Part shown: positions 42,599-58,235 of the stretch, piece by piece
Position numbering within the stretch: position 1 is the first letter of the stretch
Layout: every line of letters starts with the position of its first letter
DNA from: Frigoriglobus tundricola
Lineage (GTDB): Bacteria; Planctomycetota; Planctomycetia; Gemmatales; Gemmataceae
Length of the DNA: 64,000 bases
Assembly (NCBI RefSeq): GCF_013128195.2
Contig: NZ_CP053452.2
Location: forward strand, 3,100,001-3,164,000
Direction of reading: 5' to 3'
Notes under the pieces: generated by a model
Seen by the model: the letters and a program-made list of their open reading frames with translations, nothing else
Database searches by the model: none
Told to the model about the DNA's origin: nothing
Translations under genes and position numbers: made by a program

Positions 42599-42672
42599 GT
42601 GCCCGTAGCTCAACTGGATAGAGCGTCGGCCTCCGGAGCCGAAGGTTACAGGTTCAACTCCTGTCGGGCATA
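42599..42672 (+). tRNA. tRNA-Arg (CCG)
   Basis: A full cloverleaf: acceptor GTGCCCG/CGGGCAT with a G-U first pair, D stem GCTC/GAGC, anticodon stem TCGGC/GCCGA with loop CTCCGGA (anticodon CCG), T stem ACAGG/CCTGT with loop TTCAACT, discriminator A. CCA is not encoded. It forms the left edge of the foreign island and is a plausible integration target. Confidence 0.93.
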
Positions 42673-42734
42673 CTGGAAAAACAAGCAAATCTGAAGCCTG
42701 CAAGAATCGTATGCAGGGAACTGTGCAGGAAACT

Positions 42735-42759
42735 AGCCCCAAAATCCCTGGGGCTTTTT
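42735..42759 (+). terminator. Rho-independent terminator downstream of tRNA-Arg
   Basis: AGCCCCA (42735-42741) pairs with TGGGGCT (42749-42755), followed by TTTT. It lies 63 bases after the tRNA and would end its transcript. Confidence 0.8.
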
Positions 42760-42813
42760 CATTTCAGTTCTGGCGCTCACGCCATCCACTCCTTCTCCAG
42801 CTCCCGGCGGTGG

Positions 42814-43317
42814 CTATAGAGTTAAGCTCTGTGCCAGCGCTTCGACGATCATAGTCACTCGCTCCTTGAGAACGCCGAAGAGGTACGCCGTATTGTCTGG
42901 AGTAATCTGGATGATGCCATCTACGGGGTTAAAGTGTTCTCTTCTCAAGAGTGCCTTACTCGTCCCGGACACGTCTACGAACCGCGCCTTGTAATTCTCA
43001 AGGTCTTTCCCGAACCGCGCGCCGTTGTAGGCCAGTGCGTTCCTGACCAGCCTCGCAAGGTCCACTTCGTCATGGTTCCAGCAAAAGTCGGCCAGCGCGT
43101 CGTCGAAGTGCGTGGCGAACGCTTCCTTGATCGGCTTCTTCTTCGAGGAGTAGGTCAGTTCCTTGGTCCTGATGACGTTGGCGAGGAAGTCCTCATAGGC
43201 GAAGAACAGCGCCCCGTAATTGATACGCTGGGGTTCCGAGGATGCTGAACTGGAACTCCGACAGGGGAGGTTCGCTGCGGAAACCAGACTCAAAACCAAG
43301 CCCATCTGAACGCCCAT
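42814..43317 (-). CDS. HEPN-like protein, possibly 5'-truncated
   Basis: The likely start is Met at 43317 (167 residues); the frame is open further upstream, but that part overlaps the replication origin. INYGALFFAYEDFLANVI and DLARLVRNALAYNGARFGKDLENYKARF fit the two-helix HEPN pattern in which an R-N-x4-H motif forms the RNase site; here the expected His is Tyr (RNALAYNG). It may therefore be an inactive or binding-only HEPN protein, or a remnant. It is the first gene inside the island next to tRNA-Arg. Family assignment is by pattern only. Confidence 0.45.
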   Translation of the reverse strand: MGVQMGLVLSLVSAANLPCRSSSSASSEPQRINYGALFFAYEDFLANVIRTKELTYSSKKKPIKEAFATHFDDALADFCWNHDEVDLARLVRNALAYNGARFGKDLENYKARFVDVSGTSKALLRREHFNPVDGIIQITPDNTAYLFGVLKERVTMIVEALAQSLTL

Positions 43318-43347
43318 TGCCGGATTGATTGAAAAATCGCACCGATT

Positions 43348-43363
43348 TACGCTTGATCGGCCA
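43348..43363 (+). repeat. Degenerate iteron
   Basis: TACGCTTGATCGGCCA differs at few positions from the four main iterons (TGCGCCTAATCGGCCG). It may be an outlying Rep-binding site. Confidence 0.55.
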
Positions 43364-43517
43364 TGTCTGGATACGCCTTGATGCGGGGAGGATTGGCGGT
43401 TCGTTTCGGGCGGGCTGATGGATTTTTCTTGCCCGAATCCAGGCAATTCAGTGTGTTGCTCTGAATTGCCCCTGCTGGCCCCTTCTACTGAGCCGACTTG
43501 GCTGTCATCGAATTGAG

Positions 43518-43740
43518 TTATCCACAGACAGCCGCCGTTAAGTAAGTTAAGTCTATGTATCTTTAGATACATAGTTAAACAGTTAAGCGACCGGTAGCCA
43601 TTTGAAACATTTCGAGAAAAACGCGATCGCTGCGCCTAATCGGCCGAGAGTTTGCGCCTAATCGGCCATGCCAGCGTGCGCCTAATCGGCCGTGTCGATT
43701 GCGCCTAATCGGCCGTGTGCGGCCGGCGGCATGTGGATAA
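43518..43740. other. Plasmid-type replication origin (oriV)
   Basis: A perfect DnaA box TTATCCACA lies at 43518-43526 and its reverse complement at 43732-43740. Between them are an AT-rich stretch (~43536-43615) containing the palindrome CTATGTATC-TTTA-GATACATAG at 43552-43573, and four iterons. This is the usual layout of an iteron-controlled oriV, with the initiator gene alongside. Activity in the present chromosome is unknown; unrestrained firing would be harmful, so it is probably silent or controlled. Confidence 0.85.
43631..43715 (+). repeat. Four iterons (Rep-binding direct repeats)
   Basis: TGCGCCTAATCGGCC(G/A) occurs at 43631, 43653, 43677 and 43700. The start-to-start spacing is 22, 24 and 23 bases, about two helical turns, so the copies lie on the same face of DNA. 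They are not CRISPR repeats: the spacers are only 6-8 bases. Confidence 0.9.
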
Positions 43741-43867
43741 CTTGGGCCGTGGCGGCAGCTTCCCGGCCGCGAGGAATTTCAGTCGGTTAGGCATGATCCG
43801 GGGCGGCAGGCGTGAGCCGTGTGCCCGACATTCGGTCATCGACCCCGACTTAGGGAGAGCTCGCTCA

Positions 43868-44818
43868 CTACGCCTGATCGGCCGTGACCATCTGCGCTAG
43901 TGACAAGGCGGGTTCGGTGATGCCTAACCCTACCCGGCGGCGCGGATTCCGCGGCGGTCGGAACCGCGGATCGGTGGCGTCCAATCGGCAGCGCGGAGTG
44001 AACGTGATGATCTCGTCGGCTTCGGTCCGGTGAACCGACAGGGCGTACTCGGGCAGACCGTCTGAGTCCACCACCCGCCGCACGTCGAGCGCGAAGTCGG
44101 AGAACCGGGCAGCCGACCCGGATTTCTCGTGGAGCTGGCGCATAGTGAACTGCCAGCCCAATTCCTGGGTGCCCGCGTGTTTGCGGGCCACGCGGTATAG
44201 CCATCTCTCGATGCCGCCGGTGAGGAGGAAATAGTCCTCGTGGATGGTGAGAACCCCGCCCTTGGTCACGATCCCATTGAACAGCCAGTCCGGCAAAGTG
44301 AGGGTCATGGCCATCGTGTCGCCTGTCGCCTCGTTTATCACCTCGTTCCAACCCTCCAGCCAGTGGAACGACGACGATTTCTTCTTACCCTCTGCCCGGA
44401 TATTGGTGCGAACAGCGGTATGGGTCAATCGGTCCAGGGCTTCGCGCAGTCGGCGGTAGTGATCGCCGCCGACGGGCCGGCGCACCGCCTTGAGCAGATT
44501 GTACGGGTGAAAGCGGATGGTACGGTCGGGCGACAGGCCGCGATCGATCGCCTCGGTGACCTGCGTGGCGGCCCAGATGAGGATGTCCGCGTCCCAGATG
44601 CTCGCCATGCCGAATTTCGAGTTGGCCGTCACCTCGACCCAGACATCGCCGACGCGGTACTCGATGGGTGCCAGCCGGGGCTTCTTCGACAGGCTGAAGA
44701 ACGGTCGCTCCATCGTATCGCGTTGGTCCCGGATGGGGATGTCGGCGAAGCTGGCCGTGAACAGGTCGGGCTGAGTATCCCCTTTGGGTTGTGTGCGCTT
44801 TGACATGGCGGTCTGCAT
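43868..44818 (-). CDS. Plasmid replication initiator protein A family (RepA)
   Basis: Start chosen at ATG 44818 (316 residues); ATG 44806 and a TTG at 44848 are alternatives. The protein matches the RPA-type initiator family of proteobacterial plasmids: PFFSLSKKPRLAPIEYRVGDVWVEV, KFGMASIWDADILIWAATQVTEA, LREALDRLTHTAVRTNI, and a winged-helix C-terminal part (WLYRVARKHAGTQELGWQFTMRQLHEKSG). It should bind the nearby iterons and start replication of the element. The family is rare in planctomycetes, which points to transfer from proteobacteria. Confidence 0.88.
   Translation of the reverse strand: MQTAMSKRTQPKGDTQPDLFTASFADIPIRDQRDTMERPFFSLSKKPRLAPIEYRVGDVWVEVTANSKFGMASIWDADILIWAATQVTEAIDRGLSPDRTIRFHPYNLLKAVRRPVGGDHYRRLREALDRLTHTAVRTNIRAEGKKKSSSFHWLEGWNEVINEATGDTMAMTLTLPDWLFNGIVTKGGVLTIHEDYFLLTGGIERWLYRVARKHAGTQELGWQFTMRQLHEKSGSAARFSDFALDVRRVVDSDGLPEYALSVHRTEADEIITFTPRCRLDATDPRFRPPRNPRRRVGLGITEPALSLAQMVTADQA
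43869..43884 (+). repeat. Degenerate iteron overlapping the repA stop
   Basis: TACGCCTGATCGGCCG lies at the 3' end of repA and encodes its last residues. It may allow Rep to bind its own gene. Confidence 0.55.
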
Positions 44819-44865
44819 GGTAGCGCTGCTACCGTCAGAAGCAAGCACGAACTGACAGAAGCGAG

Positions 44866-44907
44866 CGACAGCGTGTCATCGCGCCGATCGTAGAGCTTGG
44901 TGGTTCG
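44866..44907 (-). pseudogene. Remnant of a tyrosine integrase C-terminus
   Basis: The minus strand encodes RTTKLYDRRDDTLS, 13 of 14 residues identical to the active-site-tyrosine segment of the intact integrase at 56489-57475 (RTTKLYDRRDDRLS). Nothing else of the integrase is recognisable around it. It is a short relic of a second copy. Confidence 0.75.
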
Positions 44908-45046
44908 CCCAGGAGGCCGCCGATGCCTTCGTCTTCTTCTTGTCGTCAGCGGGCCCGCTGGCTCCTGTTGCCTTCGCTACATCTCCCCGGTTGCCGCGCC
45001 GGGGTCGGACCGCGGTGGGGCATTCGGTGGTCAGCCGTCGGTCGGT

Positions 45047-45097
45047 CGCGGTGTATCGGGTGGGTGCATGGTTGCGGGACCCGCCCGATACACCGCG
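45047..45097. repeat. 19-bp hairpin-forming inverted repeat
   Basis: 45047-45065 pairs with 45079-45097 with one G-T-type mismatch and a 13-base loop (core GGTGTATCGGG). It lies between the integrase relic and the left direct repeat and is not next to a gene end, so a recombination or transfer site is possible. Confidence 0.65.
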
Positions 45098-45110
45098 ACG
45101 GTGGCGAGCC

Positions 45111-45237
45111 GTTGCCCGGCGGCTCGGCTGCGCGTCTTCATGTCTTCACGGGTCAGCTTGAGGGAGAGAGCGGGTTGAGGGTGCGGCGGCTTAACTGCCT
45201 ACGCCGCGTTTCGGCTCCAGGCCGAGGCCGCCGCGGA
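45111..45237. repeat. Left copy of 127-bp direct repeat flanking the defence cargo
   Basis: This stretch matches 55830-55956 at 123 of 127 positions in the same orientation. Its right part is a copy of the 3' end of the gene at 55910, encoding GLEPKRGVGS on the minus strand. The copies bracket about 10.6 kb. Confidence 0.92.
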
Positions 45238-45516
45238 CCAGCACTATTTTGTGAGAAGACACTTAGCTAAAGTGCTTGTGGGCAAGGCGGTTGCGGCGAT
45301 CATGTGGAGGCAACGCGTCGTGCATAACGTCCACGTTTTCCACTGTTTCCACGCTTCTCGGCACTTACTCGGCACCACGCTCCCAGCCAACGAAACGCCT
45401 GAACTCCGTTACTTTTCTGCCTACTCGCCCACTTTAGTAATGAAGGCCGCAAAACGTGGCCCGACCATTTCGGCGGGGCACAACGCCCCCGCCACAATCA
45501 CGAGTGGGAGTCAGAG

Positions 45517-47424
45517 ATGTCCGAATCGACCGTACCACAGGCCGAAATGCAACCCCCAACCGATTTCTCTCCTGAGTGGGGTGGCTCCGCCCCGCGCGGC
45601 GGGAAGACCGTGGTCACCCGCGCGCTGAAGGACGGCGCGCGAGTGCCGCTGTTCCTCGGCCAGACCCTGATCAAATCCCTCCGCGACCTCGGCTACAACA
45701 GCACGACTTCCGCCCTCTGCGAGCATGTAGACAACTCCATCCAGTGGGGGGCGACCGAGGTGCGGGTGTACTTCCGGCAGAGCGGGAAGCAGCCCAACCA
45801 GAAAATCGACATCCTTGTTTACGACAACGGCAAGGGGATGGCACCGCACGTCCTGAAGGTGGCGATGGCCTTCGGCGGCTCGATGGTCTATGACAACCGC
45901 GCCGGGATCGGTCGGTACGGGATGGGGATGAAGGCAGCGGCGCTCAACACCGCCAAAAGCGTCGATGTCATCTCATGGCAGGAACCGAACGCCTTCTACT
46001 CGATGACGCTCGACGTGGAGAAAATCGGCCAAGACCGCAACAACATGATCGAACTGCCCGACCCCCAGATGACGGACGAGCTTCCCTCCGATGTGGCGTC
46101 GATGTTCACCAAGCCGATGGACGGCGCGAAGAAGAGCGCCGAGGCGCAGGATTTGTTCGCCGAGGACTCGGATAACCTGCACGAGCGGCTGGGCAAGACC
46201 GGGACGATCGTCTACCTGCCGGCCTGCGACCGCCTGACGTACAGCACGGCGAAAACGCTCGCTGACCACGCGATCAAGGATATGGGCCGTATTTACCGGC
46301 GGTTCATCGATAAGGGCGTGAAGCTTTACATCAATAATAGCCTCGTCGAGGCGTTCGATCCGACTTACTGGCTGGAGTCGGCGCGTCACACGAAGGTAGA
46401 AGGAATCACCGAAAAGAAGTCATCGCTCGTCGATAGCTGGACCGTCGAGGTGCCCATAGCCGAGGATTCACGGACGACGACGCCGGTTCGCGTGCGCATC
46501 TTCATGCTTCCGGTGCAGACGTGGGCTGCTTTGCCGCGCCAGACATTACGAAACGGACTGCACGTTTACGACACTCACACGGTTTCGTATGTGCGGAACA
46601 GTCGCGAAGTGGACATCGGGGCAGAGCCTCGCCTGAAGATCAACAAGCACCACACGAACTCTTGGATGCGGGTGGAGATAGAGTTCAATGCGGACGCCGA
46701 CGAAGCGTTCGGCGTAGCGGCGAACAAGCAGGGAGCGCGGCTCCAGCAGTTCGCGGCCAAGGCGATCCTAGATCACGACAACAAACGCTTTGCAAAGACC
46801 GTCGCTGATGTCCGCAAAGCGATCCGCGAGCAGCACCTGAAGGTGACGGCGGAGAAGCTGGCTGGCCAGACTAGCGAGGCTGAGCAGCACGCCACCGCAG
46901 CCGACAGCCTCCAGTCGGTGGTTCTCCCTGCACCGCCGACCGACACCGCCGACCAGCAAGCGGCGCTGGAAGCCAACCTCCGAGGGCTGGCCGCCGGACT
47001 GAGGCGGGAGGGAGAGACAGAGGAGCAAGCCTTCGAGCGCGTCAAGGCGTCGAAGTTCCTGACTGACCTAAAGCATCAGGAGTACGCGCCATTTTACGAC
47101 ACCGAGTTCAAATACGGGAAGCTGATCGTGAGGGTGAACACCGCCCACCCGTTCTACAGAGAGGTGTGGCAACCCATCGCCGATCTGGCGAAGAAGTCGA
47201 TCCAGGTGTCTGACTCGGAGGACGGGGAGGCAGTGGGAAGCGATGTGGCGGATGCGTCGAGGAAAGCGCTTCTGGGGCTTGAGCTGACGCTGTTCTCCCT
47301 CGCCCGTGCCCAGACGCAGATGATGGTCGGAAACGCTCAGGAGCAGCAGCTCAACCAGATGTTCCGCACGCTTCGGAAGTCGTGGTCAGACGTGCTGGAA
47401 ACGCAGTTCATCAAGGCTGAGTAA
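45517..47424 (+). CDS. GHKL (MORC/MutL-like) ATPase of a restriction-modification module
   Basis: ATG 45517 with GGGAG at 45506 gives 635 residues. The N-terminal GHKL ATPase is complete: N box ALCEHVDNSIQWGAT (Glu and Asn for Mg-ATP), G1 DILVYDNGKGM, and G2 RAGIGRYGMGMKAAAL. An S5-like domain probably follows (~270-420), then Ala/Gln-rich helices. Family knowledge: prokaryotic MORC/MutL-like ATPases accompany R-M genes and may act as ATP-driven clamps on DNA. It is followed by a terminator and, 0.5 kb on, by the methyltransferase and Bpu10I-type nuclease in the same direction. Confidence 0.82.
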   Translation: MSESTVPQAEMQPPTDFSPEWGGSAPRGGKTVVTRALKDGARVPLFLGQTLIKSLRDLGYNSTTSALCEHVDNSIQWGATEVRVYFRQSGKQPNQKIDILVYDNGKGMAPHVLKVAMAFGGSMVYDNRAGIGRYGMGMKAAALNTAKSVDVISWQEPNAFYSMTLDVEKIGQDRNNMIELPDPQMTDELPSDVASMFTKPMDGAKKSAEAQDLFAEDSDNLHERLGKTGTIVYLPACDRLTYSTAKTLADHAIKDMGRIYRRFIDKGVKLYINNSLVEAFDPTYWLESARHTKVEGITEKKSSLVDSWTVEVPIAEDSRTTTPVRVRIFMLPVQTWAALPRQTLRNGLHVYDTHTVSYVRNSREVDIGAEPRLKINKHHTNSWMRVEIEFNADADEAFGVAANKQGARLQQFAAKAILDHDNKRFAKTVADVRKAIREQHLKVTAEKLAGQTSEAEQHATAADSLQSVVLPAPPTDTADQQAALEANLRGLAAGLRREGETEEQAFERVKASKFLTDLKHQEYAPFYDTEFKYGKLIVRVNTAHPFYREVWQPIADLAKKSIQVSDSEDGEAVGSDVADASRKALLGLELTLFSLARAQTQMMVGNAQEQQLNQMFRTLRKSWSDVLETQFIKAE

Positions 47425-47435
47425 CGATGCGCCAG

Positions 47436-47466
47436 ACGCCCCGGACTGCTCCGGGGCGTTTCTTTT
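47436..47466 (+). terminator. Rho-independent terminator after the GHKL gene
   Basis: ACGCCCCGGA (47436-47445) pairs perfectly with TCCGGGGCGT (47450-47459), loop CTGC, followed by TTCTTTT. It starts 12 bases after the stop. Confidence 0.92.
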
Positions 47467-47918
47467 GGTAGACCCTGATCGACGGTGGCGGCAACTTCGC
47501 GATACGAAAAAAGCACGGCCATCCGTGACCGGGCGTTTGCAAAAATAACCTACCGAGCCATGCTGTACCCCAGAAGAGCCCCCGCGATCGAGGCTTTGAG
47601 GAATGCCCGCTGGTCTGGCGGCATGTCCGTCATTTTCTGACCGAAGCGGGAAAATCATCTAGTCCGGTTTTGACCCAACGACCGTCCCTCTCGGATGCAG
47701 CCACATCTCCGCGTGCCATTTGCGGGGCATCCTAAGACGGACGTTAGAGATATGGGCAAAGGCCGAAAATCCCCGCGATGATCCGAAAAAAGCTCACCGA
47801 ACACCCGCTCCCCGGCCGATGATTTTTTGATGCCTGCTGCCCTGCGTCTCGGCGGGGCCTGTCGCTATAATGGGCGTTTGTACACAGCTCTGGACGCCCC
47901 GGTCAGGGTTTCATCACG
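47467..47918. other. Intergenic region before the methyltransferase
   Basis: About 450 bases with no supported gene. It must contain the promoter of the methyltransferase/nuclease pair. No control (C) protein gene is seen. Confidence 0.5.
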
Positions 47919-49175
47919 ATGAGTATCACCACAGGTCCGGATTTTGATGGCGTGCCGCTCGACACGAGAACCATCGCGCAGGATCGACTCAACATCGGCA
48001 ACAAGGCACGCAGCAACCTGTTCCCGTGGAACGGCCAGTTTTCCCCGCAACTGATAGAAGCCCTTCTCACGACCTACGCCTCGACTGGCGCTTTCGTGCT
48101 GGACCCCTTTCTCGGAAGCGGCACCGTTCTGCACGAGGCGGGCAGGCTCGGCCATCCGGCCTTCGGCTCCGAGGTGAATCCGGCGGCCTTCAAAATGGCG
48201 CTGGTTTACCGCTTCCTCAACGTGAAGGTGGCGACGCGGCGAAACGCCATCGAGGAAGCCGATGAACTGCTCCAAGACATTCTGCCGTCCTCGCCTTCCC
48301 TGTTCTCCCCCCAATCGAAGCGCCAAGCCGCGCCCATACAGCAGGCGATCACCGATGCCGTGCTGTCGGCCGAATCGCCCCTCCCGAAGATCCTACTCGA
48401 ATCGCTGGTTGTATTGCTGAACTTTGGCGACAAGGAGCTTACTGCCGCTGGCGTGCAAAAAGCGTGGGGCGGCCTTCGTGACACACTACTGACCCTTCCC
48501 TTTTCGGAGGCGGCCATCGACTTGGCCAACTGCGACGCCCGCGCTCTGCCGCTCGCCGACGCTAGCGCCGATATCGTCATCACCTCTCCGCCGTACGTCA
48601 ACGTGTTCAACTACCACCAGCAGTATCGCAAGTCCGTCGAAGCGCTGGGCTGGAACCTGCTCGAAGTGGCCAAATCGGAGATCGGCTCAAACCGCAAGAA
48701 CCGCGGCAACCGCTTCCTGACCGTCATCCAGTATTGCATCGACATGACCGCCGTTCTGATGGAGCTGCGCCGGGCCTGCAAGCCATCCGCGCGTGTCGTC
48801 ATGGTTATGGGCCGTGAGTCGAACGTCCGAAAGACCCGATTCTTCAACGGCGAGATCATGGCCACTCTTGCTGCCCGGTCTGCCGGATATTGCTTCGCGT
48901 CCCGGCAGGAGCGCGTCTTCCAGAACCGCTTCGGCGAGAAGATCCACGAGGACATCCTCCACCTGACACCTCACCCGATCACCGGACCGCTCACCCCGCC
49001 ATCCATCATCGCTCGTGAGGTGATGACCGCCGCGCGCGCCCGCGCGCCAGAGGAGTCTATCGCCGATCTGACGGGCGCTCTAGAAAAGCTCGATGAAATC
49101 CAGCCGTCGCCGATGTACAGCCGGGACGCGGCGCTCTCCGCCCGTCCCAGCCGCAAGAAGAAGGAAGTCGTGTAA
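47919..49175 (+). CDS. DNA methyltransferase (TSPPY type, probably type II R-M)
   Basis: ATG 47919 gives 418 residues. The AdoMet-binding motif I is DPFLGSGTVLHEAGRLGHPAFGSEVNP near residue 62, and the catalytic motif IV is ITSPPYVNVFNYHQQYRK near residue 226. TSPPY is typical of N4-cytosine or some N6-adenine enzymes. Order of motifs: X-like N-terminus, I, then IV. Its stop and the nuclease start share one base (TAATG), so the pair is translationally coupled, as in type II R-M systems. The recognition sequence may be like CCTNAGC by analogy with Bpu10I, but that is inference. Confidence 0.9.
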   Translation: MSITTGPDFDGVPLDTRTIAQDRLNIGNKARSNLFPWNGQFSPQLIEALLTTYASTGAFVLDPFLGSGTVLHEAGRLGHPAFGSEVNPAAFKMALVYRFLNVKVATRRNAIEEADELLQDILPSSPSLFSPQSKRQAAPIQQAITDAVLSAESPLPKILLESLVVLLNFGDKELTAAGVQKAWGGLRDTLLTLPFSEAAIDLANCDARALPLADASADIVITSPPYVNVFNYHQQYRKSVEALGWNLLEVAKSEIGSNRKNRGNRFLTVIQYCIDMTAVLMELRRACKPSARVVMVMGRESNVRKTRFFNGEIMATLAARSAGYCFASRQERVFQNRFGEKIHEDILHLTPHPITGPLTPPSIIAREVMTAARARAPEESIADLTGALEKLDEIQPSPMYSRDAALSARPSRKKKEVV

Positions 49176-50095
49176 TGGCTCTGCCGACGCCCCATCTTGA
49201 AAAGCTAACCGCGACGCTCGCCAACGAGAAGCTGCCGCCTGTGGATAGCCCTCGCATCGACGCGGCCATTGTCCGCTACAAGAAGTGGATCGTCGACCTG
49301 AACGCCGTCACGGGGACGCCCCAGCAGCGTATTCAGGCGCTCGTGGCGCTGCTGAACGACTACCGCCGCTACATCGACCTCGAACTGGTGTTCGACAGCC
49401 CGCAGGACTTTCTGTACCGCCAGAAAGGGCAACTCAAACTCGATAATAGTGTGATCGAGGAGTTCCTACCCCATCTGGTGCAGCCCGCCGTGCTGCCGGA
49501 GATCGCGGGGCATGAAGTCGTCGTCGGCCCGACCACCTGCTTTTCTTCCGTCTACTTCTCCACCAGCCTTGAAATCCCCGTCGTTGGCGGCGGCCTCGAA
49601 ATCCGCGCCAAGGATCAGGACTTCGCCATCAGCAAGAAGCTGTTCCTGAAAGCCTCGCACGATGCGGCGTTCGGCGCGCAGCACACCGTGACCAAGGAGA
49701 CGCACATCGGGTTCGTCGTCTCCGAGTGCAAAACGAACCTCGACAAAACCATGTTCCAAGAGGCGTGTGCCACCGCCCACGACGTGAAGGCTGCTGTCTC
49801 CGGCGCTCGTTACTATTTGCTCTGCGAGTGGCTGGACATGACGCCGCTCAGCACCGCCCCCACCGATATCGACGAGATCATCCTGTTAAGGAAGGCGAAG
49901 CGGCTCAACTCGAACGTGCGCGCGAAATACGCGAACTTCGCCGGGCGTAAGGCCAACCGGGCGAATTACCTGAAACACCTCACCGACAACCCGTTCCGCG
50001 TCGAGGTTTTCGAGCGGTTCATCAACCACATCCGGGGCATTCTTCGGAACGAAGCCCCGGTCGAGAGTGACGTGCTGGCGCGGGGTTACTTTTGA
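49175..50095 (+). CDS. Bpu10I-family restriction endonuclease
   Basis: ATG 49175 gives 306 residues. The sequence matches the Bpu10I family in its core: GLEIRAKDQDFAISKKLFLKAS followed by IGFVVSECKTNLDKTMFQEACATAHDVK. The SECKTN segment supplies the E-x-K half of a PD-(D/E)xK site. Bpu10I itself is a two-subunit nuclease, but only one nuclease subunit gene is present here. The GHKL ATPase may be part of the same module. Confidence 0.88.
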   Translation: MALPTPHLEKLTATLANEKLPPVDSPRIDAAIVRYKKWIVDLNAVTGTPQQRIQALVALLNDYRRYIDLELVFDSPQDFLYRQKGQLKLDNSVIEEFLPHLVQPAVLPEIAGHEVVVGPTTCFSSVYFSTSLEIPVVGGGLEIRAKDQDFAISKKLFLKASHDAAFGAQHTVTKETHIGFVVSECKTNLDKTMFQEACATAHDVKAAVSGARYYLLCEWLDMTPLSTAPTDIDEIILLRKAKRLNSNVRAKYANFAGRKANRANYLKHLTDNPFRVEVFERFINHIRGILRNEAPVESDVLARGYF

Positions 50096-50096
50096 A

Positions 50097-51227
50097 TCAC
50101 GACACGTCATCGGTCAACGATGGCAATTTCGGCCATCCGTAGCACTTTCTTAGCAGCGCATTCATCTCGCCGACCTGCGCGTCGGTGCGGTGCGGTTTCG
50201 TCTGCTCGCCGTCGCGCGTCATCCACGTTTCCGGTCGCCCGGTCTCCTGATAGACCGCGTCGTCAGAAATCCGAAACCCGGCCATGAAGTTGATGAAGTC
50301 CGCCTGTCTCCGGTCGTAAAGATACGTCAAGTCCATCAGGTACGGCGCGGCACCTGTCGCCGCCTCCTCGCGCCCGTCGAAGAACTCGGCCCGTACCGCA
50401 TGATCGGTGTGCAACAACCCCTCGTACCGCGTCCAATCTTTCCACTGAAGAGCTGCCGGAACGGGATTCAGTGGGCAAGGTGATTCATTGACCAGGGGCT
50501 TCCCTCGCCCGTCGAGCGGTCGCAACCATGTGACCCGCCCCTCATCCTGCGGCGACTTGGGCGCGGCTTCGGTGCCTTCGCCCTTCGTCGGGTGCGCCTG
50601 CGAGACGGTAATCATTGCCTGTTTCACCGCCCACTGCCCGTGATCGGTGGCGGGGCTTTCGTACCAATCTTTGAAGTGCCGCATGTGGCCTGCGCTGTTC
50701 GCGGTGAAGGCGATTCCGCCAGGGATGCGGTGGTCGTGCCACCAGCGGCCGTCGCCGGACGCCGCGAAGAAATCGACGTTGAACTGGAATCCGTAGGCGA
50801 AGCCGTCGGCCGGATTTTTTAGGTAGAGGAAATCGCTCGATATCGCGTTGTCGAGCTTCTTTCCGCGCCGCTGCGGTGCCCAACCCGCTAGCTCCAGAAG
50901 TCGGTCGGCAAAACGGCGGAGGTTGTCGTCCGGGGCCGCGAGCGTTACCCGTGGCGACGCGAACAAGAGCATCATCCCCGACGGCGGACTCTGCATGTTG
51001 ACCAGCGCGCGCTGCTTCCACAGCCGCTTGCCCTTGGCGATCTTTTCCGCGAGGCCCTTATCGCCATCGGCGAGGTCGCGTTCGTGGAGGATGCAGAAGT
51101 GAATCTGCCCTTTCTTGGCCGCGATCCGTCCGAACTGGCACGATTGCCGCTTGAGGCACCAAAGCGCCATGCCCTCGGCGATGTCCTGATCTAGCGCGAA
51201 CGGGTGATGCGCCAGCGCGGCAGTGGG
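50097..51227 (-). pseudogene. 3' part of an unknown gene split by an IS3 element
   Basis: The frame from base 51227 down to 50097 encodes ~376 residues of coherent protein (LAHHPFALDQDIAEGMALWCLKR at the start; FAYGFQFNVDFFAASGDGRWWHDH, LMDLTYLYDRRQADFINFMAGFRI later). The N-terminal ~33 codons lie on the other side of the IS at 52471-52568. I do not recognise the family. It is Trp/His-rich and has no membrane segment. As last gene of the TIR-caspase operon it was probably a functional part before the IS arrived. The truncated form might still be expressed from the IS. Confidence 0.7.
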
Positions 51228-51287
51228 CTTCCCCAAAGTTGGTGGACACGAAGTTAGGGGTGTAGACTCCGAAGGAGGAGGACACCG

Positions 51288-51578
51288 ATGGCACGCAAGA
51301 CGTACACGCGCGAGTTCAAGTTGCAAGCGGTCCAGATGTTGACCGACCAGAAGCTGTCCGTGGCCGAAGTGGCCCGCAAGCTGGGGGTGAGCGAGGGCTG
51401 CCTGCGGGCCTGGAAGAGCGCCGCCCAAGCCGACGGGGCCGGGGCGTTCCCCGGGCACGGCAACGCCACCCCGGGCGACGACGAGCTGCGGCGCCTGCGG
51501 GCCGAGGTCACGCGCCTCAAGGCCGAGCGGGACCTGTTAAAAAAAGCCGCGGCGTATTTCGCGAACCCGCCGAGCTGA
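51288..51578 (+). CDS. IS3-family OrfA (transposase N-terminal HTH protein)
   Basis: A 96-residue protein with helix-turn-helix (YTREFKLQAVQMLTDQKLSVAEVARKLGVSEGCLRAWK) and a C-terminal leucine-zipper-like helix (LRRLRAEVTRLKAERDLLKKAAAYF). The run of seven A at 51539-51545 near its end is a typical -1 frameshift site for making OrfAB. Confidence 0.93.
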   Translation: MARKTYTREFKLQAVQMLTDQKLSVAEVARKLGVSEGCLRAWKSAAQADGAGAFPGHGNATPGDDELRRLRAEVTRLKAERDLLKKAAAYFANPPS

Positions 51579-52444
51579 CGTTCGCGTTCATCGCCGCCAA
51601 CGAGGACCAGTGGCCGGTCCGGTGGATGTGCGATGCCCTGGACGTGTCCGCGTCCGGGTACTACGCCTGGGCCACCCGACCCGACAGCGCGACCGAACAG
51701 TGGCGTCGGGAGCTGCTGTCCCAGATCCGGGCGGTCCACGCCGAGGTGAAGCACCGGTACGGGAGCCCGCGGATGAGGGCCGCGTTGAATGCCCGCGGGC
51801 ATGAGTGCTCGGAGAACACGGTAGCCGAACTGATGCGGGAGCACGGAATCCGGGCCAAAGCCCCGAGGCGGTTCGTCCGCACAACCGACTCGCGGCACCA
51901 ACTGCCGGTGTTCGAGAACGTGCTGGACCGGAACTTCGAGCCGGACGGGCCGAACCGGGCCTGGGGCACGGACATCACGTACATCCCAACAGCCGACGGG
52001 TGGCTGTACCTGGCCGTGGTCGAGGACCTGTTCAGCCGGATGATCGTGGGTTGGTCGATGGATGCGTCGATGGAGAGCCGGCTGGTGGTGGACGCGTTGG
52101 ACATGGCGGTGGCCCGTCGGTGCCCGGGTGCGGGCCTGTTGTCGCACTCGGACCGGGGGACCCAGTACGCCAGCGCCCATTACCAAGGGGTGCTGGCCGG
52201 GCACGGGATCGTGTGCAGCATGAGCGGGGTGGCCCAGTGCTGGGATAACGCTCCCGTCGAGAGCTTCTTTGCGAGCCTCAAACGAGAACTCGTCCATGAC
52301 GAGGAGTACACCACTCGGGAGCAGGCCAAGGGCAGCATCTTCGAGTACCTCGAAGTGTTCTACAACCGCGTCCGCCTTCATTCCTCACTGGGGTTCTTAT
52401 CTCCGGCTGAGTTTGAACGGACGTACAACCAGAAACACCCTTAA
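51545..52444 (+). CDS. IS3-family OrfB (DDE transposase, reached by -1 frameshift)
   Basis: This frame is open from the slippery A7 run and reads about 299 residues in the -1 frame relative to orfA. It contains the HTH_21 domain (HAEVKHRYGSPRMRAALNARG) and the rve DDE core: first Asp in WGTDITYIPTADGWLYLAVV, second in LLSHSDRGTQYAS, and Glu in CWDNAPVESFFASLKRE, followed by YNRVRLHSSLGFLSP. All catalytic residues are present, so the element may still move. Confidence 0.92.
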   Translation, partial: SRGVFREPAELTFAFIAANEDQWPVRWMCDALDVSASGYYAWATRPDSATEQWRRELLSQIRAVHAEVKHRYGSPRMRAALNARGHECSENTVAELMREHGIRAKAPRRFVRTTDSRHQLPVFENVLDRNFEPDGPNRAWGTDITYIPTADGWLYLAVVEDLFSRMIVGWSMDASMESRLVVDALDMAVARRCPGAGLLSHSDRGTQYASAHYQGVLAGHGIVCSMSGVAQCWDNAPVESFFASLKRELVHDEEYTTREQAKGSIFEYLEVFYNRVRLHSSLGFLSPAEFERTYNQKHP

Positions 52445-52470
52445 CTCCGCGCCCTTTTTCTTTGGGGAAG

Positions 52471-52568
52471 ACCACAGCTTCCTTCATGTCGTCGTTGAAC
52501 GGGTGCGCGGCGCGCCACGGGTCGTCCTTGAGTCGGTCGAACAGCGAAACCAGCGTATCATTGGCCAT
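52471..52568 (-). pseudogene. 5' part of the unknown gene split by the IS3 element
   Basis: ATG 52568 begins DTLVSLFDRLKDDPWRAAHPF and the frame runs into the IS. Its stop-side continuation is the frame at 50097-51227. It starts 36 bases after the SLOG-like gene ends, which fits the last place in the operon. Confidence 0.65.
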
Positions 52569-52604
52569 TGAATCCCCTTCGCGGTTATTCCGTGTTTCGG
52601 CGGT

Positions 52605-53096
52605 TCACCCCGGCCCAGTGACTTCGAGCAGGCCGGGATGCACATGAATCAGCGGCCTGCCCAGTGACCGCGCGTACTCGACCACGTCCCCGGTCCCGCC
52701 TTTTCCCGCCGCCTGTTTGCCGTTCCACAGCGTGACCAGCAGGTCACAGTGATCGACGACGTACTTCCCGGCCGCGAGGAAGGCGTCTTCTGACGGCTCG
52801 ACATAATCCAGCGTCACGACGTTGTTGCTCTGCGCGAGCAGCGAGTGGTACTTCGCTTTAGCCTCCGCGCCCTCAAACGTGTCTTCATACAGGGTGCAAG
52901 GCAGAACTACGTCCACGGGTATCCCGAGGGCGAGCGCCGCATCGGTGAATGCCTGGTCGCCGCCCTCGGCCAGCGCGACGAGGACGCAGGTTCCGCCGGC
53001 CGCGTGTTCGCGGAGAATGTCTGCGAGCTGCAAGCGAACCCAATCCCATCGCTCAGGGTGATCGATCTTCTGGTGCCCGCTGAAGCCGATTATCAT
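52605..53096 (-). CDS. SLOG-like Rossmann-fold nucleotide-binding protein
   Basis: A 163-residue protein. FSGHQKI at the N-terminus, CVLVALAEGGDQAFTDAALALGIPVDVVLPC, and the glycine-rich end (CDLLVTLWNGKQAAGKGGTGDVVEYARSLGRPLIHV) fit a SLOG/LOG-type fold, in which the GGTG-type loop binds nucleotide phosphates. Family knowledge: SLOG domains detect NAD-derived or nucleotide signals in Thoeris ThsA and related conflict systems. The gene starts 12 bp after the caspase gene, so it probably senses or processes the signal made by the TIR proteins. It has no effector domain of its own. Confidence 0.7.
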   Translation of the reverse strand: MIIGFSGHQKIDHPERWDWVRLQLADILREHAAGGTCVLVALAEGGDQAFTDAALALGIPVDVVLPCTLYEDTFEGAEAKAKYHSLLAQSNNVVTLDYVEPSEDAFLAAGKYVVDHCDLLVTLWNGKQAAGKGGTGDVVEYARSLGRPLIHVHPGLLEVTGPG

Positions 53097-53108
53097 CGCC
53101 CCACCGTT

Positions 53109-54074
53109 TCAGATTTTGCCTTCCTTGGCAAGTTTCCAGTAGAAGCGGCCCAACCCAGTGAGGCGAACACCGGTCGAGTGCATCGCGGCAAAATATAGGT
53201 CGTCATGCTCAGTGGTACGAACCAGCCGCGCGTTACGGAAAATCTTGAGTGTGTTGAATACCGCGACGTGGTCGGGGTCTGCCACCGACATCGTGTACTC
53301 ATACGTCTGATCGAGCTTAATAGTAGCCATCGGGTCGGGAAAGATTTTCGGCAACTGTCGCAAGATCGCGGGCGGCACCGCCGGTTCGCACTGGCGAACC
53401 GGAGTGAGGCGCGAGGCGTGCGATTTGTACATAGGCCGCTGATCCCAAGCCCCGAGTGCTTGATCGGCGTGAGCATAAATCGCAGCCGCCGACACCTTGC
53501 CCATGACGTCCGAAGCACCGCCGTGCAGCGCGTGCAGCACCATCGAAGTGAACATCCCCTGACCCCCGACTTCGGCCGCTGTTTCATGCGGACTGGACGC
53601 CGCCAAGATCGTGACGCCCTCGCGGAGGAATGCACTGTTGTCGAGACCGGATTGCATCACCGCCGGGTTGCCGAGCGAGCCACTGAAACAGCAATCAAGG
53701 ATGAGCAGCACCTCCCGAGCCTTCGACCTGTTCGCTCGGGTGAGCAGTTCGTCCATCGGCAGGCCCACATCGTTGCCTTTGCCGTCCTGTGTGGCGAGGA
53801 ACCCACCCACGATCGTCGGGGTGCCGTGCCCCGCGAAGTAGAACAGCACTGCGTCGGGCGCACCGTCGAACAGCTTATCCCACTCGGTGCGCAGGAAGTC
53901 CCGCGTAATCGACTCGGGGCCAGGACTGAGGTGCAAGCGGCACTGGTAGTTCGGGGTGTCGTCCCAGTGCATTTTCAGCACATCCTCCATCAACTCCGCG
54001 TCGCGGACGGCACCGGTCAGGCCGCTGATGTGGTCGTACTTGTTGATCCCAACGATCAAGGCGCGGCGCTGCAT
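53109..54074 (-). CDS. Caspase-like (C14) protease of a TIR-linked defence operon
   Basis: ATG 54074 gives 321 residues. RALIVGINKYDHISGLTGAVRDAELM opens the caspase fold. The catalytic His is in AVLFYFAGHGTPT (near residue 84) and Cys in VLLILDCCFSGSLG (near residue 128). From ~residue 245 a small C-terminal domain follows (FNTLKIFRNARLVRTTEHDDLYFAAMHSTGVRLTGLGRFYWKLA), which looks like a winged-helix or signal-binding module. It lies between the TIR gene and the SLOG-like gene with short gaps. By analogy with type IV Thoeris, a TIR-made cADPR isomer could switch on proteolysis. The ligand is unproven. Confidence 0.9.
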   Translation of the reverse strand: MQRRALIVGINKYDHISGLTGAVRDAELMEDVLKMHWDDTPNYQCRLHLSPGPESITRDFLRTEWDKLFDGAPDAVLFYFAGHGTPTIVGGFLATQDGKGNDVGLPMDELLTRANRSKAREVLLILDCCFSGSLGNPAVMQSGLDNSAFLREGVTILAASSPHETAAEVGGQGMFTSMVLHALHGGASDVMGKVSAAAIYAHADQALGAWDQRPMYKSHASRLTPVRQCEPAVPPAILRQLPKIFPDPMATIKLDQTYEYTMSVADPDHVAVFNTLKIFRNARLVRTTEHDDLYFAAMHSTGVRLTGLGRFYWKLAKEGKI

Positions 54075-54128
54075 GGTTTCCCCTCAAATGATGATTGGCC
54101 CCCTTACGAACCGGTCGCGACCGACACG

Positions 54129-54518
54129 CTACCGCCCGCCCCCAATCAAGATTTTCAGATTGTCCCACGTCCAGTTGTACATTTTGTCCGGGGAGAGCGC
54201 GGTGGTCGGCTTGGTGCAGGTCTTGTCGCTGTAGGCAGCGAGAAGGAAGTATTCCTTTCCCTTCTCCTGAGCGATCTTGACCTCGGCGGCGACGCCCTTG
54301 GCTGTATGTGTTTTTTCGCCGCAAAGCACGACCACTACGTCGATGTTGTCCATCCGGCGGCGAACCTTGGCCTCCCAATCGCCGGTCAACGGCTCCTTGA
54401 GGGATGCATCCTTGAAGTCGAACGGGCTGTCCTCGTGCTTCGCCTGCCCGGCAAGCATGATCTTCGCCCCCTCGTCGTTGTCGTAATCGAAGCTGATGAA
54501 AACGCGCTTCTTGGCCAT
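54129..54518 (-). CDS. ThsB-like TIR domain protein (second TIR)
   Basis: ATG 54518 gives 129 residues, a whole small TIR domain. KKRVFISFDYDNDEG starts the first strand; QAKHEDSPFDFKDASLKEPLTGDWEAKVRRRM matches the ThsB/DUF1863 pattern, and a glutamate lies at the expected catalytic place (AKGVAAEVKIAQEKG). It ends with YNWTWDNLKILIG, also seen in the first TIR. It is probably an NADase making a cyclic ADP-ribose signal. Paralogous to the gene at 54569; two TIRs often give two different phage triggers. Confidence 0.85.
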   Translation of the reverse strand: MAKKRVFISFDYDNDEGAKIMLAGQAKHEDSPFDFKDASLKEPLTGDWEAKVRRRMDNIDVVVVLCGEKTHTAKGVAAEVKIAQEKGKEYFLLAAYSDKTCTKPTTALSPDKMYNWTWDNLKILIGGGR

Positions 54519-54568
54519 GTCAGAATCCTCCGGTTGAAGCTTTCGAATTGAGTAATTCCATCCGTTCG

Positions 54569-54952
54569 TTACAGCGTGTCGATGAATTTCGCGATGCCGT
54601 CCCACGTCCACTCGATGATCTTCACCCCCGTCAACTCCGGCGGGACGACGCCTTTTTCGTCCTTGTAGATGTGAACGCCGATGATCGGTACGCCCTCCTC
54701 GATGGCGCATTTCATCTCCCACCGCGCGCCGCTTGCCTGCATCGTGTCGGTGCTGAGCAGGGCGATCACTCCGTCGCACCCCTTGATCTTCGAGCGGCAT
54801 CGTGCCTTCCAGTTCTCGCTCCACGGCTCTTTCACGGACATGTCCACGAACTCGAAGGGGGAATCTTCGAGCCGCGCTTGCCCGACGAGGAAGTCGCGGG
54901 AACGCTCGTCCTCGATGGCGAAGCTGATGAAAATGCGGTGCTTCATAGTCAT
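54569..54952 (-). CDS. ThsB-like TIR domain protein (first TIR)
   Basis: A 127-residue TIR protein (start Met1 or Met3). KHRIFISFAIEDERSRDFLVGQ is the first beta-strand/BB region, FEFVDMSVKEPWSENWKARC follows, and the catalytic Glu is predicted in ASGARWEMKCAIEEG. GVPIIGVHIYKDEKG and IIEWTWDGIAKFID complete the domain. The family is MTH538/DUF1863, which includes Thoeris ThsB sensors. It is separated by 50 bases from the second TIR. Confidence 0.88.
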   Translation of the reverse strand: MTMKHRIFISFAIEDERSRDFLVGQARLEDSPFEFVDMSVKEPWSENWKARCRSKIKGCDGVIALLSTDTMQASGARWEMKCAIEEGVPIIGVHIYKDEKGVVPPELTGVKIIEWTWDGIAKFIDTL

Positions 54953-55146
54953 AACAGGTTACTCCCGTGTGAAAGCGAAGCCATGTCGGTTGCGAACAAG
55001 CGCATACCGACCCGGCTGGCGGATTGAAAAAGTGAAAATTAGAATAATCTGGCCTGATGATTCCGCTGTACACGTGATAGTGAACGCATGTCGAGATATA
55101 AATCCGTGAAAGCTTGGAATCAACGTTTCAGGATCGCCAATCGGCG

Positions 55147-55593
55147 TCAGGCGATGGCCTTTTCTCGGAGAGCCGAGCGCCACCGCAAAACCCGCATCTT
55201 GAGCGCGGCCTCCGTAACACCGGTGTCGGCCGCGATGGTGGCGTAACTTTCGCCACCCGCCAGCTTGCACTCGACCAACCACTCTGCGGGAGCGAGCGAT
55301 TCGTAAACCTTGTCGATGAGCGGCTCTTGGAAATCGCGGTAGCTGAAAACGGCGTGGCCGAACGACCAGACGCGGAGCCGGACGTGCTTCTTTGATCGGT
55401 TACGAGGCAGGCGGTCGAGGGTGGCTCGCATGGCGTTCGTGAACGGCTTGCCCGATTCAATGAGCCGGAGCGTTTCGTTCAACTGCTCCTCGCGGCCTTG
55501 CCCGAACTCGTCGGCACGGCCGTCGTGCGCCTCGCGGGCGTGGTCGGAGTAATACTGCCAAAGCGGAGGGAGTCCGACGTCCGAAACGGACAT
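55147..55593 (-). CDS. Sigma-70 region-4/HTH-like regulator
   Basis: Start ATG 55593 (148 residues). The C-terminal part LVECKLAGGESYATIAADTGVTEAALKMRVLRWRSALREK is a helix-turn-helix of the sigma-70 region-4 type. Upstream helices (EPLIDKVYESLAPAEWL) lack a clear region 2, so this is more likely a regulator than a complete sigma factor. It lies 194 bases upstream of the TIR genes on the same strand and may control the operon. Confidence 0.7.
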   Translation of the reverse strand: MSVSDVGLPPLWQYYSDHAREAHDGRADEFGQGREEQLNETLRLIESGKPFTNAMRATLDRLPRNRSKKHVRLRVWSFGHAVFSYRDFQEPLIDKVYESLAPAEWLVECKLAGGESYATIAADTGVTEAALKMRVLRWRSALREKAIA

Positions 55594-55829
55594 GGTGTGG
55601 CCTTTCAGTAGGGTTTCGGGACACGGTGCTATTTCCGCGCCCACTCTTCGACCCACGAAAGGCTGCCGACCGCGCGGGTGGCACGCTATGGCCACGTCGC
55701 GTCAGTTTGTCCGGCTGGCCCCTCGCTCGTCGCACCGCCATCGCTGGCGGCTTGTTACTAGCATAGTGGGCAACGCGGACGAAAGTAACGCGCTAGCGCC
55801 GATTTATGGCGATAGCCAGGCCACGGCCG

Positions 55830-55956
55830 GTTGCCCGGCGGCTCGGCTGCGCGTCTTCATGTCTTCACGGGTCAGCTTGAGGGAGAGAGCGGGTTGAGGG
55901 TGCGGTGGCTTAGCTGCCTACACCGCGTTTCGGCTCCAGGCCGAGGTCGCCGCGGA
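55830..55956. repeat. Right copy of 127-bp direct repeat flanking the defence cargo
   Basis: Same orientation and 123/127 identity with 45111-45237. It contains the 3' end of the gene at 55910. Since this copy keeps the whole gene, the left copy is the duplicated fragment. Confidence 0.92.
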
Positions 55957-56425
55957 TGGCCTCGCTGATTTCGGCGAACAAGCGCTCGGCTTGCAACTGC
56001 CCAGCGGCTCGCCGCTCGCGGTCGAGTTGCTTGGTCCACACGCCTTCGCCTTCCCGCCAGCGCCAGCCGTCCTCGCGCAACTGCGTGCGGTAGCACTGTT
56101 CGGGCTTTTCGTCGAACTTGATGGCCATTTGGTTGAGCTTGTTGCTGCGGTAGAGGCGCATCCGCGGGCTGTCCTTGTCCGGCCCCAGGCTCACCGCCAT
56201 CAGCACGAACGGATCTGGTTGCCAGGTGTGGCTTGGAGCGGGGCTTGTGCTGGCCGCACTGCCTTCGGCCGGTGTGGTGACTGTCGCAGCGGGCTGCGGT
56301 GTTGGGGGTGGCTCGTGCGATTCCGTCGGTGCGGCCGGACCGTTATCGGGCTTTGGGAGTTGTTTCTTCTTGCGTGGCTGACGTGGGGGCACGGACGACT
56401 CATTCGGCAGTTGAGCCCCCCGCAT
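55910..56425 (-). CDS. Mobile-element accessory protein of unknown function
   Basis: ATG 56425 gives 171 residues. The first ~80 residues are disordered, Pro/Lys-rich (PPRQPRKKKQLPKPDNG). The C-terminal half has a small domain LNQMAIKFDEKPEQCYRTQLREDGWRWREGEGVWTKQLDRER, a motif found in large polyvalent and antirestriction-type proteins on plasmids and phages. It is 63 bases downstream of the integrase on the same strand, so the two may be co-transcribed. Its 3' end is duplicated in the left direct repeat. Confidence 0.65.
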   Translation of the reverse strand: MRGAQLPNESSVPPRQPRKKKQLPKPDNGPAAPTESHEPPPTPQPAATVTTPAEGSAASTSPAPSHTWQPDPFVLMAVSLGPDKDSPRMRLYRSNKLNQMAIKFDEKPEQCYRTQLREDGWRWREGEGVWTKQLDRERRAAGQLQAERLFAEISEAIRGDLGLEPKRGVGS

Positions 56426-56488
56426 AGCGCATCTTGCACCGATTGTAAAGTAGCCAACGATTGCCACCGGCTCACGTGTACCGGATGA

Positions 56489-57475
56489 TCAAATTGTGAT
56501 CCGCTCCACCTCATCGAGCGAAAGCCTGTCGTCTCGGCGGTCATAGAGCTTCGTCGTTCGCGCCGATTCATGGTTGGCGATCTGCTGGGCTTTCTCCAGG
56601 GTGCCGCCGTTAATGAGGTAGTTGGTGATGCCGGTGGCGCGGAAGGTGTGGCAGCCGATAGCGGTCTCGATGCCGGCGGCCGCCGCCCGCCGGCGAACCA
56701 TTTCGTAGACGTCGCGGCGGCTCATCCGCCCGCCCGTGAGTTTCTTGGTTTTCCCTCGCGTGACGCGGAAGAGTGGCAACTTCTTCTGCTCCCATAGCCC
56801 GGCCTGATCGAGGTAGGCGTCGAGGAACTCTTCGAGCTTGTGGTGCGCCGGAACCTCGTGGAGCTTACCGCCCTTCTCGTGCAGCCGCACCCACCAGCGC
56901 TTCCCTTGCGGGTAGTAATCCTCGACGTTCATCGCGGCGAGCGCGCCGACGCGGGCGAACGTGTACACCATCAGCGCGATCACTGCCCGGTCGCGTAGAC
57001 CCACGACGTTTGTAGTGTCGATGTTGTCGAGGAGCTGACGCGCCTCGTCCTGGTCGAGGACAGGGGTTTTTCCCTTTTTGGCCGAGTAACTCGGGCCGCG
57101 GACGGCGGCGGCCGGGTTCATCTCCAAGACTTGGCCGACGACGAGGTAGTCGAAGAGCATCCGTATGGCGGCGAGGTTCTGCTTCACCGTCGGTGCGGAG
57201 CGCTCGCGGGTGAACTGCTCGATGTAGGCAGCGACGTGGAGCGGCCGGAGGTGGATGAGCTTGAAGCCGCGATCCTCGATCCAGGCGAAGAGGTTATTCA
57301 CGGCGCGCAGGTAGGCCATCCGCGTGTTCACGTTGCGGATGGTGGCGGCGAAGAACTCGGCGAACTTCTCTTCGGCTTTGGGGCCGGCTTGGCGGATGGC
57401 GAGCGGCATAATCGAGGCCGGGTTGATGCGGACCATGTCTTCGGCCTTATCGACCACTACCAGCTCACCGGACAT
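56489..57475 (-). CDS. Tyrosine recombinase/integrase of the island
   Basis: ATG 57475 (MSGELVVVD) gives 328 residues. The SAM-like core-binding domain (FFAATIRNVNTRMAYLRAVNNLFAWIEDRG...YIEQFTRERSAPTVKQNLAAIRMLFDYLV) is followed by the catalytic domain: Arg in VYTFARVGALAAMNVEDY, Lys in LHEKGGKLHEVP, HTFRATGITNYL (HxxR), His in ANHESARTTKLY, and the nucleophile Tyr in TTKLYDRR. Such integrases accompany RPA-type plasmids in proteobacteria. It is at the right end of the island, as expected for an integrated element. Confidence 0.93.
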   Translation of the reverse strand: MSGELVVVDKAEDMVRINPASIMPLAIRQAGPKAEEKFAEFFAATIRNVNTRMAYLRAVNNLFAWIEDRGFKLIHLRPLHVAAYIEQFTRERSAPTVKQNLAAIRMLFDYLVVGQVLEMNPAAAVRGPSYSAKKGKTPVLDQDEARQLLDNIDTTNVVGLRDRAVIALMVYTFARVGALAAMNVEDYYPQGKRWWVRLHEKGGKLHEVPAHHKLEEFLDAYLDQAGLWEQKKLPLFRVTRGKTKKLTGGRMSRRDVYEMVRRRAAAAGIETAIGCHTFRATGITNYLINGGTLEKAQQIANHESARTTKLYDRRDDRLSLDEVERITI

Positions 57476-58182: not shown

Positions 58183-58207
58183 ACGGTAGCTGGGCAACTC
58201 CGACATC

Positions 58208-58235
58208 AAGGGCGGCTCCCGCGGGAGCCGCCCTT
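58208..58235 (+). terminator. Terminator-like palindrome
   Basis: A 28-base perfect palindrome (AAGGGCGGCTCCC and its complement) 25 bases after the Tat-protein stop. No strong T tract, so Rho-independent activity is likely but not certain. Confidence 0.7.

Follow-up and report, generated by a model that had tools for sequence, protein, structure and literature searches.

Results

An iteron array, DnaA boxes and an initiator gene lie together in the chromosome

The window analysed here is a 64-kb stretch (C1:3100001-3164000) of the chromosome C1 (9,832,702 bp); the second contig of the assembly, C2, measures 24,691 bp. We observed that positions 43348-44818 of the window hold four iterons, two perfect DnaA boxes, an AT-rich stretch and a gene for an RPA-family (PF10134) initiator, arranged as follows:

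43348..43366, + strand: degenerate iteron copy, 79% match to the reference copy
43518..43526, + strand: perfect DnaA box, which on the rep strand follows the last iteron by 104 bp
43537..43585, - strand: unwinding-element candidate, with four TAAC words at +45, +53, +81 and +90 after the last iteron
43553-43574: AT-rich palindrome CTATGTATCTTTAGATACATAG, arms of 10 and loop of 2, within the TAAC array
43631..43718, + strand: four iterons, 19-mers at 43631, 43653, 43677 and 43700, spaced 22-24-23 on the + strand
43732..43740, - strand: second perfect DnaA box
43868..44818, - strand: rep, RPA-family initiator of 316 aa, likely start at 44806
43869..43887, + strand: degenerate iteron copy at the rep stop codon, 84% match to the reference copy

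The iteron core reads YGGCCGATTAGGCGCA on the rep strand. The 14-mer GCGCCTAATCGGCC has exactly four copies in the 64-kb window, all inside the iteron array. The DnaA box word TTATCCACA was matched twice in the 64 kb, at 43518 (+) and 43732 (-), against an expectation of 0.05; two such boxes were reached in 1 of 100 shuffles. The element that carries the module, referred to below as A, has all the sequence features typical of an iteron theta origin: iterons in tandem at helical spacing, an AT-rich DUE and a DnaA box. The module is thus read, from its sequence, as a predicted iteron oriV with its own initiator.

A preliminary description of this DNA had named the iterons, DnaA boxes, AT-rich palindrome and RPA initiator, and each was located here; nusA (21005-22624) and infB (24113-26380) were also found in the window as it had claimed. 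Its four iterons at 22-24-bp spacing agree with the 22-24-23 spacing observed, and the copy number rises to six iteron-like copies when the two degenerate ones are included. We also considered a GC-skew inflection as the mark of a chronic origin. None was seen in the window: the skew does not switch across the oriV site, and a recent insertion would leave no switch either.

Rep resembles iteron initiators in sequence and predicted fold

Rep matched PF10134 over the whole profile (1-228 of 228; E=1.9e-81, 273 bits, cut-off 27) when searched in a slightly longer frame (43868-44848). The MSKR start at 44806 is shared with the homologues in elements B and G002, described below. Rep appears to be under purifying selection, with dN/dS of 0.05-0.21 across six pairs (0.09 for A and B), where synonymous differences of 0.43-0.57 are high enough to make dS rough. 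No internal stops were observed in any of 16 homologues.

The AlphaFold model of Rep (pLDDT 77) gave domains 2-3 of RctB as its best fold match (Z 17.5), followed by Rep-DUE/iteron complexes (Z 11.6 and 11.3) and RepE54 (Z about 11). RctB is the initiator of Vibrio chromosome 2. The predicted fold of Rep is that of the iteron initiators RctB and RepE. A PDB sequence search with Rep gave no match at E up to 1.

We also assessed how Rep relates to plasmid and viral initiators. RPA initiators were matched by 1177 PLSDB records, and the closest of these plasmid initiators is just 52% identical to Rep. IMG/VR yielded two distant RPA loci (47-51%). C2 encodes a distant RPA gene with 26% identity to Rep. 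In a tree, 19 planctomycete rows fell together on one side of a branch (support 88/96), and grouping of the planctomycete Reps is likely on this basis. A separate planctomycete RPA group (32-36% identity) was seen in G014, G114 (three copies) and G137, on a long branch of the tree.

The module belongs to a 46-kb element delimited by tRNA-anchored repeats

Left of the oriV lies a tRNA-Arg gene, and the following features bound element A and its relative B:

42599..42673, + strand: tRNA-Arg (anticodon CCG), the integration target, intact at attL
42623..42685, + strand: attL, 63 bp, comprising the last 51 bases of the tRNA 3' end and the 12 that follow
42623..64000: portion of integrative element A inside the window; the whole element (C1:3142623-3188614, 46.0 kb) runs beyond the window end
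42814..43317, - strand: 167-aa open reading frame between attL and oriV, no Pfam family
C1:3187132-3187281: HTH_17 domain, excisionase candidate, convergent with the integrase (36.9 bits, cut-off 27)
C1:3187301-3188425: tyrosine integrase, just inside attR
C1:3188553-3188614 (window-equivalent 88553-88614, outside the window): attR, 98% identical to attL
C1:9561946-9587676 (also delimited as C1:9561972-9587676): element B, in a tRNA-Phe gene of the same chromosome, with a 94-bp repeat at 90% identity

GC content is 0.63 in A, compared to 0.686 in the window left of A and 0.67 in the right flank. In addition to the integrase and the candidate excisionase, A encodes a TrwC/MobF relaxase-helicase (NF041492, 215 bits, cut-off 100), a VirD4-type coupling protein (T4CP), ParA and ParB; all of these genes lie past the window end. 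The preliminary description, which overlooked the 46-kb extent, the att sites and the conserved lineage of such modules in planctomycete chromosomes, had left a choice between an integrated plasmid and an integrative element. On the tRNA-Arg att repeats, integrase, relaxase, ParAB and HTH_17 candidate, the second of these is right.

Pfam searches with the 38 predicted proteins of A that reach 100 aa gave no family of the conjugation channel besides the coupling protein (ParB and a kinase-TPR protein were searched at not quite full length). VirB4 (PF03135) was not detected in any of 10 host genomes, own included, by a profile that a very divergent VirB4 could escape and that detected PF03135 in Caulobacter, among 14 controls. 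This leaves self-transfer of A unsupported. The lack of a channel family and of VirB4 leads us to class A, by gene content, as integrative and mobilizable, not self-transmissible.

Next in similarity to A's integrase are three others of this genome (C1:9661788, 688491 and 6535458; 34-37% identity). Each is accompanied by a convergent HTH_17 in the position that the excisionase candidate has in A, and they probably mark more islands of A's integration type. The frame at 688491 contains a TGA.

Related elements share the module and occupy different tRNA genes

We observed a Rep match of any kind in 25 of 149 related genomes (own included), and in 13 of these there were 15 close places, at 68-100% identity. 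When the comparison was widened to 392 genomes from the phylum (E up to 1e-60, scoring no more than five candidates in each), three had matches, namely the own genome, G112 and the new G192, which brought the total to 16 places. The close places lay on a chromosome-sized contig in 9 of 9 near-complete cases (G000 twice, G002, G008, G019 twice, G140, G111 and G122); the remaining seven of the 16 are on smaller contigs. A ParA-like gene occurs in all 16 neighbourhoods, directly upstream and on the same strand in 12, and a homologue of A's relaxase in 9.

Repeats anchored in a tRNA gene delimit 4 of the 16 loci: A, B, G002 (tRNA-Arg(CCG), 60 kb) and G019a (tRNA-Leu, 54 kb). We did not observe a convincing repeat of this kind in the other 12 within the stretch examined. 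The G002 element occupies the same tRNA-Arg(CCG) as A, and the integrase beside its attR is 74% identical to A's; in G019a the integrase adjoins attL.

Elements A and B share an oriV-rep block (81% DNA identity) and a relaxase block (75%). The two blocks stand 39 kb apart, at opposite ends, when A is linear; in B the distance is 0.7 kb. Closed at att, A would bring them to 2.4 kb apart, in B's order. The preliminary description would have been contradicted by relatives that have the module without a trace of excision. The relatives do not contradict it: they use different tRNA genes, and A and B have their common blocks in one order only if A is circular.

In element B, rep and oriV are intact, the relaxase frame is full-length, ParA is shortened, and an HTH_17 domain lies at 9585551. 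No integrase was found in B among 37 listed of the genome's 38 PF00589 matches, and A's integrase had no tblastn match there. B is probably stuck in the chromosome because of this. B nevertheless keeps rep and oriV, and rep can therefore persist where excision looks impossible.

We also looked for a free circle and for an empty site. The small contigs G072 and G105 lack terminal overlap. Same-genus genomes gave no clean empty site, and in the relatives compared the two flank genes are not neighbours. The gene on the left flank (UDG) is present in 18 of 19 same-genus genomes, own included, and the one on the right flank in 19 of 19; in G008 they are about 3 Mb apart. The left flank was conserved in 6 of 6 same-genus stretches compared (among which the G004 stretch is short, and G013 has tRNA-Arg(TCG) at the left flank); tRNA-Arg(CCG) adjoined it in none, and the right flank was unmatched there. 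As an observation on exchange between island and plasmid, A's YhcG/PDC-S02 nuclease region (C1:3166722-3168387) is 81% identical to C2:23015-24666.

The order of iterons and TAAC words is conserved

Four iterons follow rep in 16 of 16 planctomycete homologues. Their spacing on the rep strand is 23-24-22 bp in 13, and G002, G140 and G109 are off by one base in one interval. A chance origin of the array is excluded, because a run of at least three iterons appeared in 0 of 3200 shuffles (200 for each of the 16 downstream regions). A TAAC word stands 45 bp after the last iteron in all 16 (G008 also has an earlier one), and a further one at 53 or 54 in all 16, with at least four TAAC words in the 110 bp; at least three words were reached in 43 of 3200 shuffles. 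A perfect DnaA box lies at +93 to +105 after the iterons in 10 of the 16, and the other six have degenerate copies or none.

We tried the palindrome as a core feature of the origin and rejected it. It is present at 43553-43574, as the preliminary description had said, but is not general: only A, B and G002, the last with base-changed arms, have it (3 of 16), and it is missing in 13. The TAAC array is the conserved feature.

We then extended the comparison beyond planctomycetes, using the best 80 RPA loci of a scan minus 7 planctomycete ones. Among these 73 best-matching loci, 55 have at least three iterons, spaced 20-26 bp, on the downstream side of rep, and in 51 the iterons are followed by at least three TAAC words (four of the 55 have fewer). 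The other 18 of the 73 best-matching loci lack at least three downstream iterons, and one of them has just 93 bases of sequence. Upstream of rep, at least three iterons were found in none of the 73, some of whose upstream flanks are short. The controls for the downstream signature gave 12 of 602 random 900-bp stretches (at least three 8-mer iterons) and 16 of 1460 random 170-bp stretches. Iteron sequences vary between RPA lineages, as would be expected if iterons coevolve with Rep. For RPA elements at large, Tn4371-type ICEs included, the predicted place of oriV is downstream of rep, with iterons and then a TAAC array.

Discussion

Element A and known replicating islands

The kind of element to which A belongs is already known from SGI1, pPDL2 and Tn4371-type ICEs. 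SGI1 is a mobilizable chromosomal island in which four iterons lie directly downstream of rep together with a putative DnaA box and AT-rich stretches, and the excised form no longer replicates once rep or oriV is deleted (PMC7433901). In the portions of that paper considered here, a rep fusion is silent without a helper, and initiation in integrated SGI1 stays compatible with the account given (PMC7433901). Both SGI1 and A are chromosomal mobilizable islands with a four-iteron oriV immediately downstream of rep. SGI1 differs from A in its insertion in trmE, its need for an IncA or IncC helper, its 17-bp iterons (consensus RKGGGGGHRATTATGCG), which differ from A's in sequence and length, and its Rep, for which a RepA_C domain is implied, whereas A's Rep is RPA (PMC7433901).

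The plasmid pPDL2 of Sphingobium fuliginis has an RPA/Rep-3-domain RepA, iterons, an AT-rich stretch and a dnaA box in a functional minireplicon, and an integrase with an attP that recombines with the 3' end of tRNA-Ser (PMC3516476). Like A, it combines an RPA-domain initiator and iterons with a tRNA-directed integrase on one element; unlike A, it is a free, proteobacterial plasmid whose oriV the authors, in the part of the paper considered, placed upstream of repA (PMC3516476).

Tn4371-family ICEs encode a RepA related to that of pVS1, with ParA and integrase (PMC2789088). In the part of that source considered, neither iteron nor oriV is mentioned, and we found no open-licence paper with both 'Tn4371' and 'iteron'. 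In Tn4371 elements there are trb genes, and the relaxase lacks a helicase domain (PMC2789088); A has a MobF relaxase and no detected VirB4-type gene. The RPA loci of Diaphorobacter and Tistrella contain, in order, an HTH-like gene (recognised by eye), rep, the iterons and a parA-like gene. This layout closely resembles the repA-parA region of Tn4371-type ICEs (PMC2789088), a group to which their gene order would assign the two loci. They differ from A in having three iterons of another sequence and parA downstream of rep. The SXT/R391 ICEs resemble A as ICEs with replication and partition functions, but in the sections considered it is TraI that starts their replication, at oriT and not at an iteron oriV (PMC4489591).

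Both the lineage in planctomycetes and the iteron-TAAC signature across the RPA family appear to be new: among the matches listed in the open-licence literature, neither a planctomycete element of this kind nor the signature was described. Planctomycetes thereby gain a defined lineage of mobile elements, whose att sites, integrase and relaxase come with a ready-made origin that could be developed into genetic vectors. The number of ICEs that are conditional theta plasmids becomes a directly testable question.

Interpretation of the module

Anatomy, conservation and context of the module are as observed above. We consider it quite probable that it serves the replication, after excision, of an integrative and mobilizable element inserted in tRNA-Arg(CCG). 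In favour of this reading are the att repeats with an intact tRNA gene, the integrase and candidate excisionase, the relaxase, coupling protein and ParAB, the conserved oriV and rep, the predicted fold of Rep, the block order in B, the location of close homologues on the main contig, and the precedents SGI1 and pPDL2. Against it stand the absence of VirB4 matches in 10 of 10 host genomes, the searches that gave no empty site and no circular contig, the intact rep and oriV of B, in which no integrase was detected, and the 12 of 16 loci where the stretch examined showed no convincing tRNA-anchored repeat. A has its own plasmid-style origin and initiator, conserved in related planctomycete islands, and is therefore probably a dormant plasmid-like element able to copy itself on leaving the chromosome. 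By analogy with SGI1, replication would follow excision, and Rep would be repressed or lacking while A is integrated.

Excision, Rep binding, firing, transfer and silencing of A can be put together in a model. Integrated A would be copied passively by the chromosome. The integrase, with the HTH_17 excisionase candidate, would excise it; Rep would bind the four iterons and DnaA the flanking boxes, and the TAAC/AT-rich stretch would open for theta replication of the circle. This replication may keep copies available during transfer, in which the MobF relaxase and coupling protein would pass one strand to a recipient through a mating channel supplied in trans.

The best placed of the alternatives, itself unlikely, is that Rep and the iterons no longer start replication and serve as a copy-control or incompatibility device, by handcuffing or by excluding related elements. 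Two related elements with near-identical iterons, A and B, do coexist in one chromosome, and handcuffing is discussed for iteron replicons in the part of PMC7433901 considered. Such a device has to be set against the TAAC array and DnaA boxes, which are for melting and not for iteron binding, and which are largely conserved at near-fixed spacing.

Next comes the improbable reading of A as an ordinary plasmid, integrated once by chance and now a decaying relic. The many RPA initiators on plasmids (the 1177 PLSDB records) and the lack of a detected integrase in B would suit a relic. A relic is at odds with the tRNA att repeats of A, G002 and G019a and the integrase at the border of each, with the excisionase candidate in A, and with a rep and oriV that are conserved and show low dN/dS. 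The closest PLSDB initiator is also only 52% identical, and the close homologues are on chromosome-sized contigs.

A very doubtful variant would make the origin competent while integrated. Planctomycete chromosomes with these modules, of which G000 and G019 have two each, would then hold latent auxiliary theta origins with an RctB-like initiator that fire, for example, upon transfer induction and amplify flanking chromosomal DNA. That the origin fires in place as a working auxiliary chromosomal origin is the least probable reading of all: the closest fold is RctB, and all nine places in near-complete assemblies are on the main contig, but the window has no GC-skew switch across the site, and just 25 of 149 related genomes have any Rep match, so the chromosome does not need Rep. 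The preferred reading remains a mobilizable element that replicates once excised.

Cargo of element A

The window part of A also contains defence and transposition genes:

45517..50095, + strand: consecutive genes for a HATPase/GHKL ATPase (MzaB-like), a DNA methylase and a Bpu10I-family endonuclease
51288..52444, + strand: insertion-sequence transposase pair (HTH_Tnp_1 and rve integrase core)
53109..54952, - strand: caspase-like protein (PF00656) and two TIR/ThsB-like proteins
56489..57475, - strand: second tyrosine recombinase, whose cluster has members in 6 of the 16 loci, counting A

The first of these sets resembles restriction-modification with an extra ATPase. The caspase-like and TIR/ThsB-like genes, together with a 163-aa protein of no family (52605-54952), look like Thoeris with a caspase effector, which we take to be type IV. 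A 127-bp direct repeat (97% identical) at 45111-45237 and 55830-55956 brackets 10.7 kb of defence cargo, and the second recombinase lies just outside it. The cargo between the repeats is possibly a nested cassette. A third copy of the repeat occurs at C1:6513443-6513567; in G113 a 75-bp repeat (84%) adjoins a related recombinase, and the recombinase of plasmid C2 belongs to the same Pfam families as that of A. Finally, a 102-bp unit is repeated within the protein-kinase-TPR gene (window 63020-63565).
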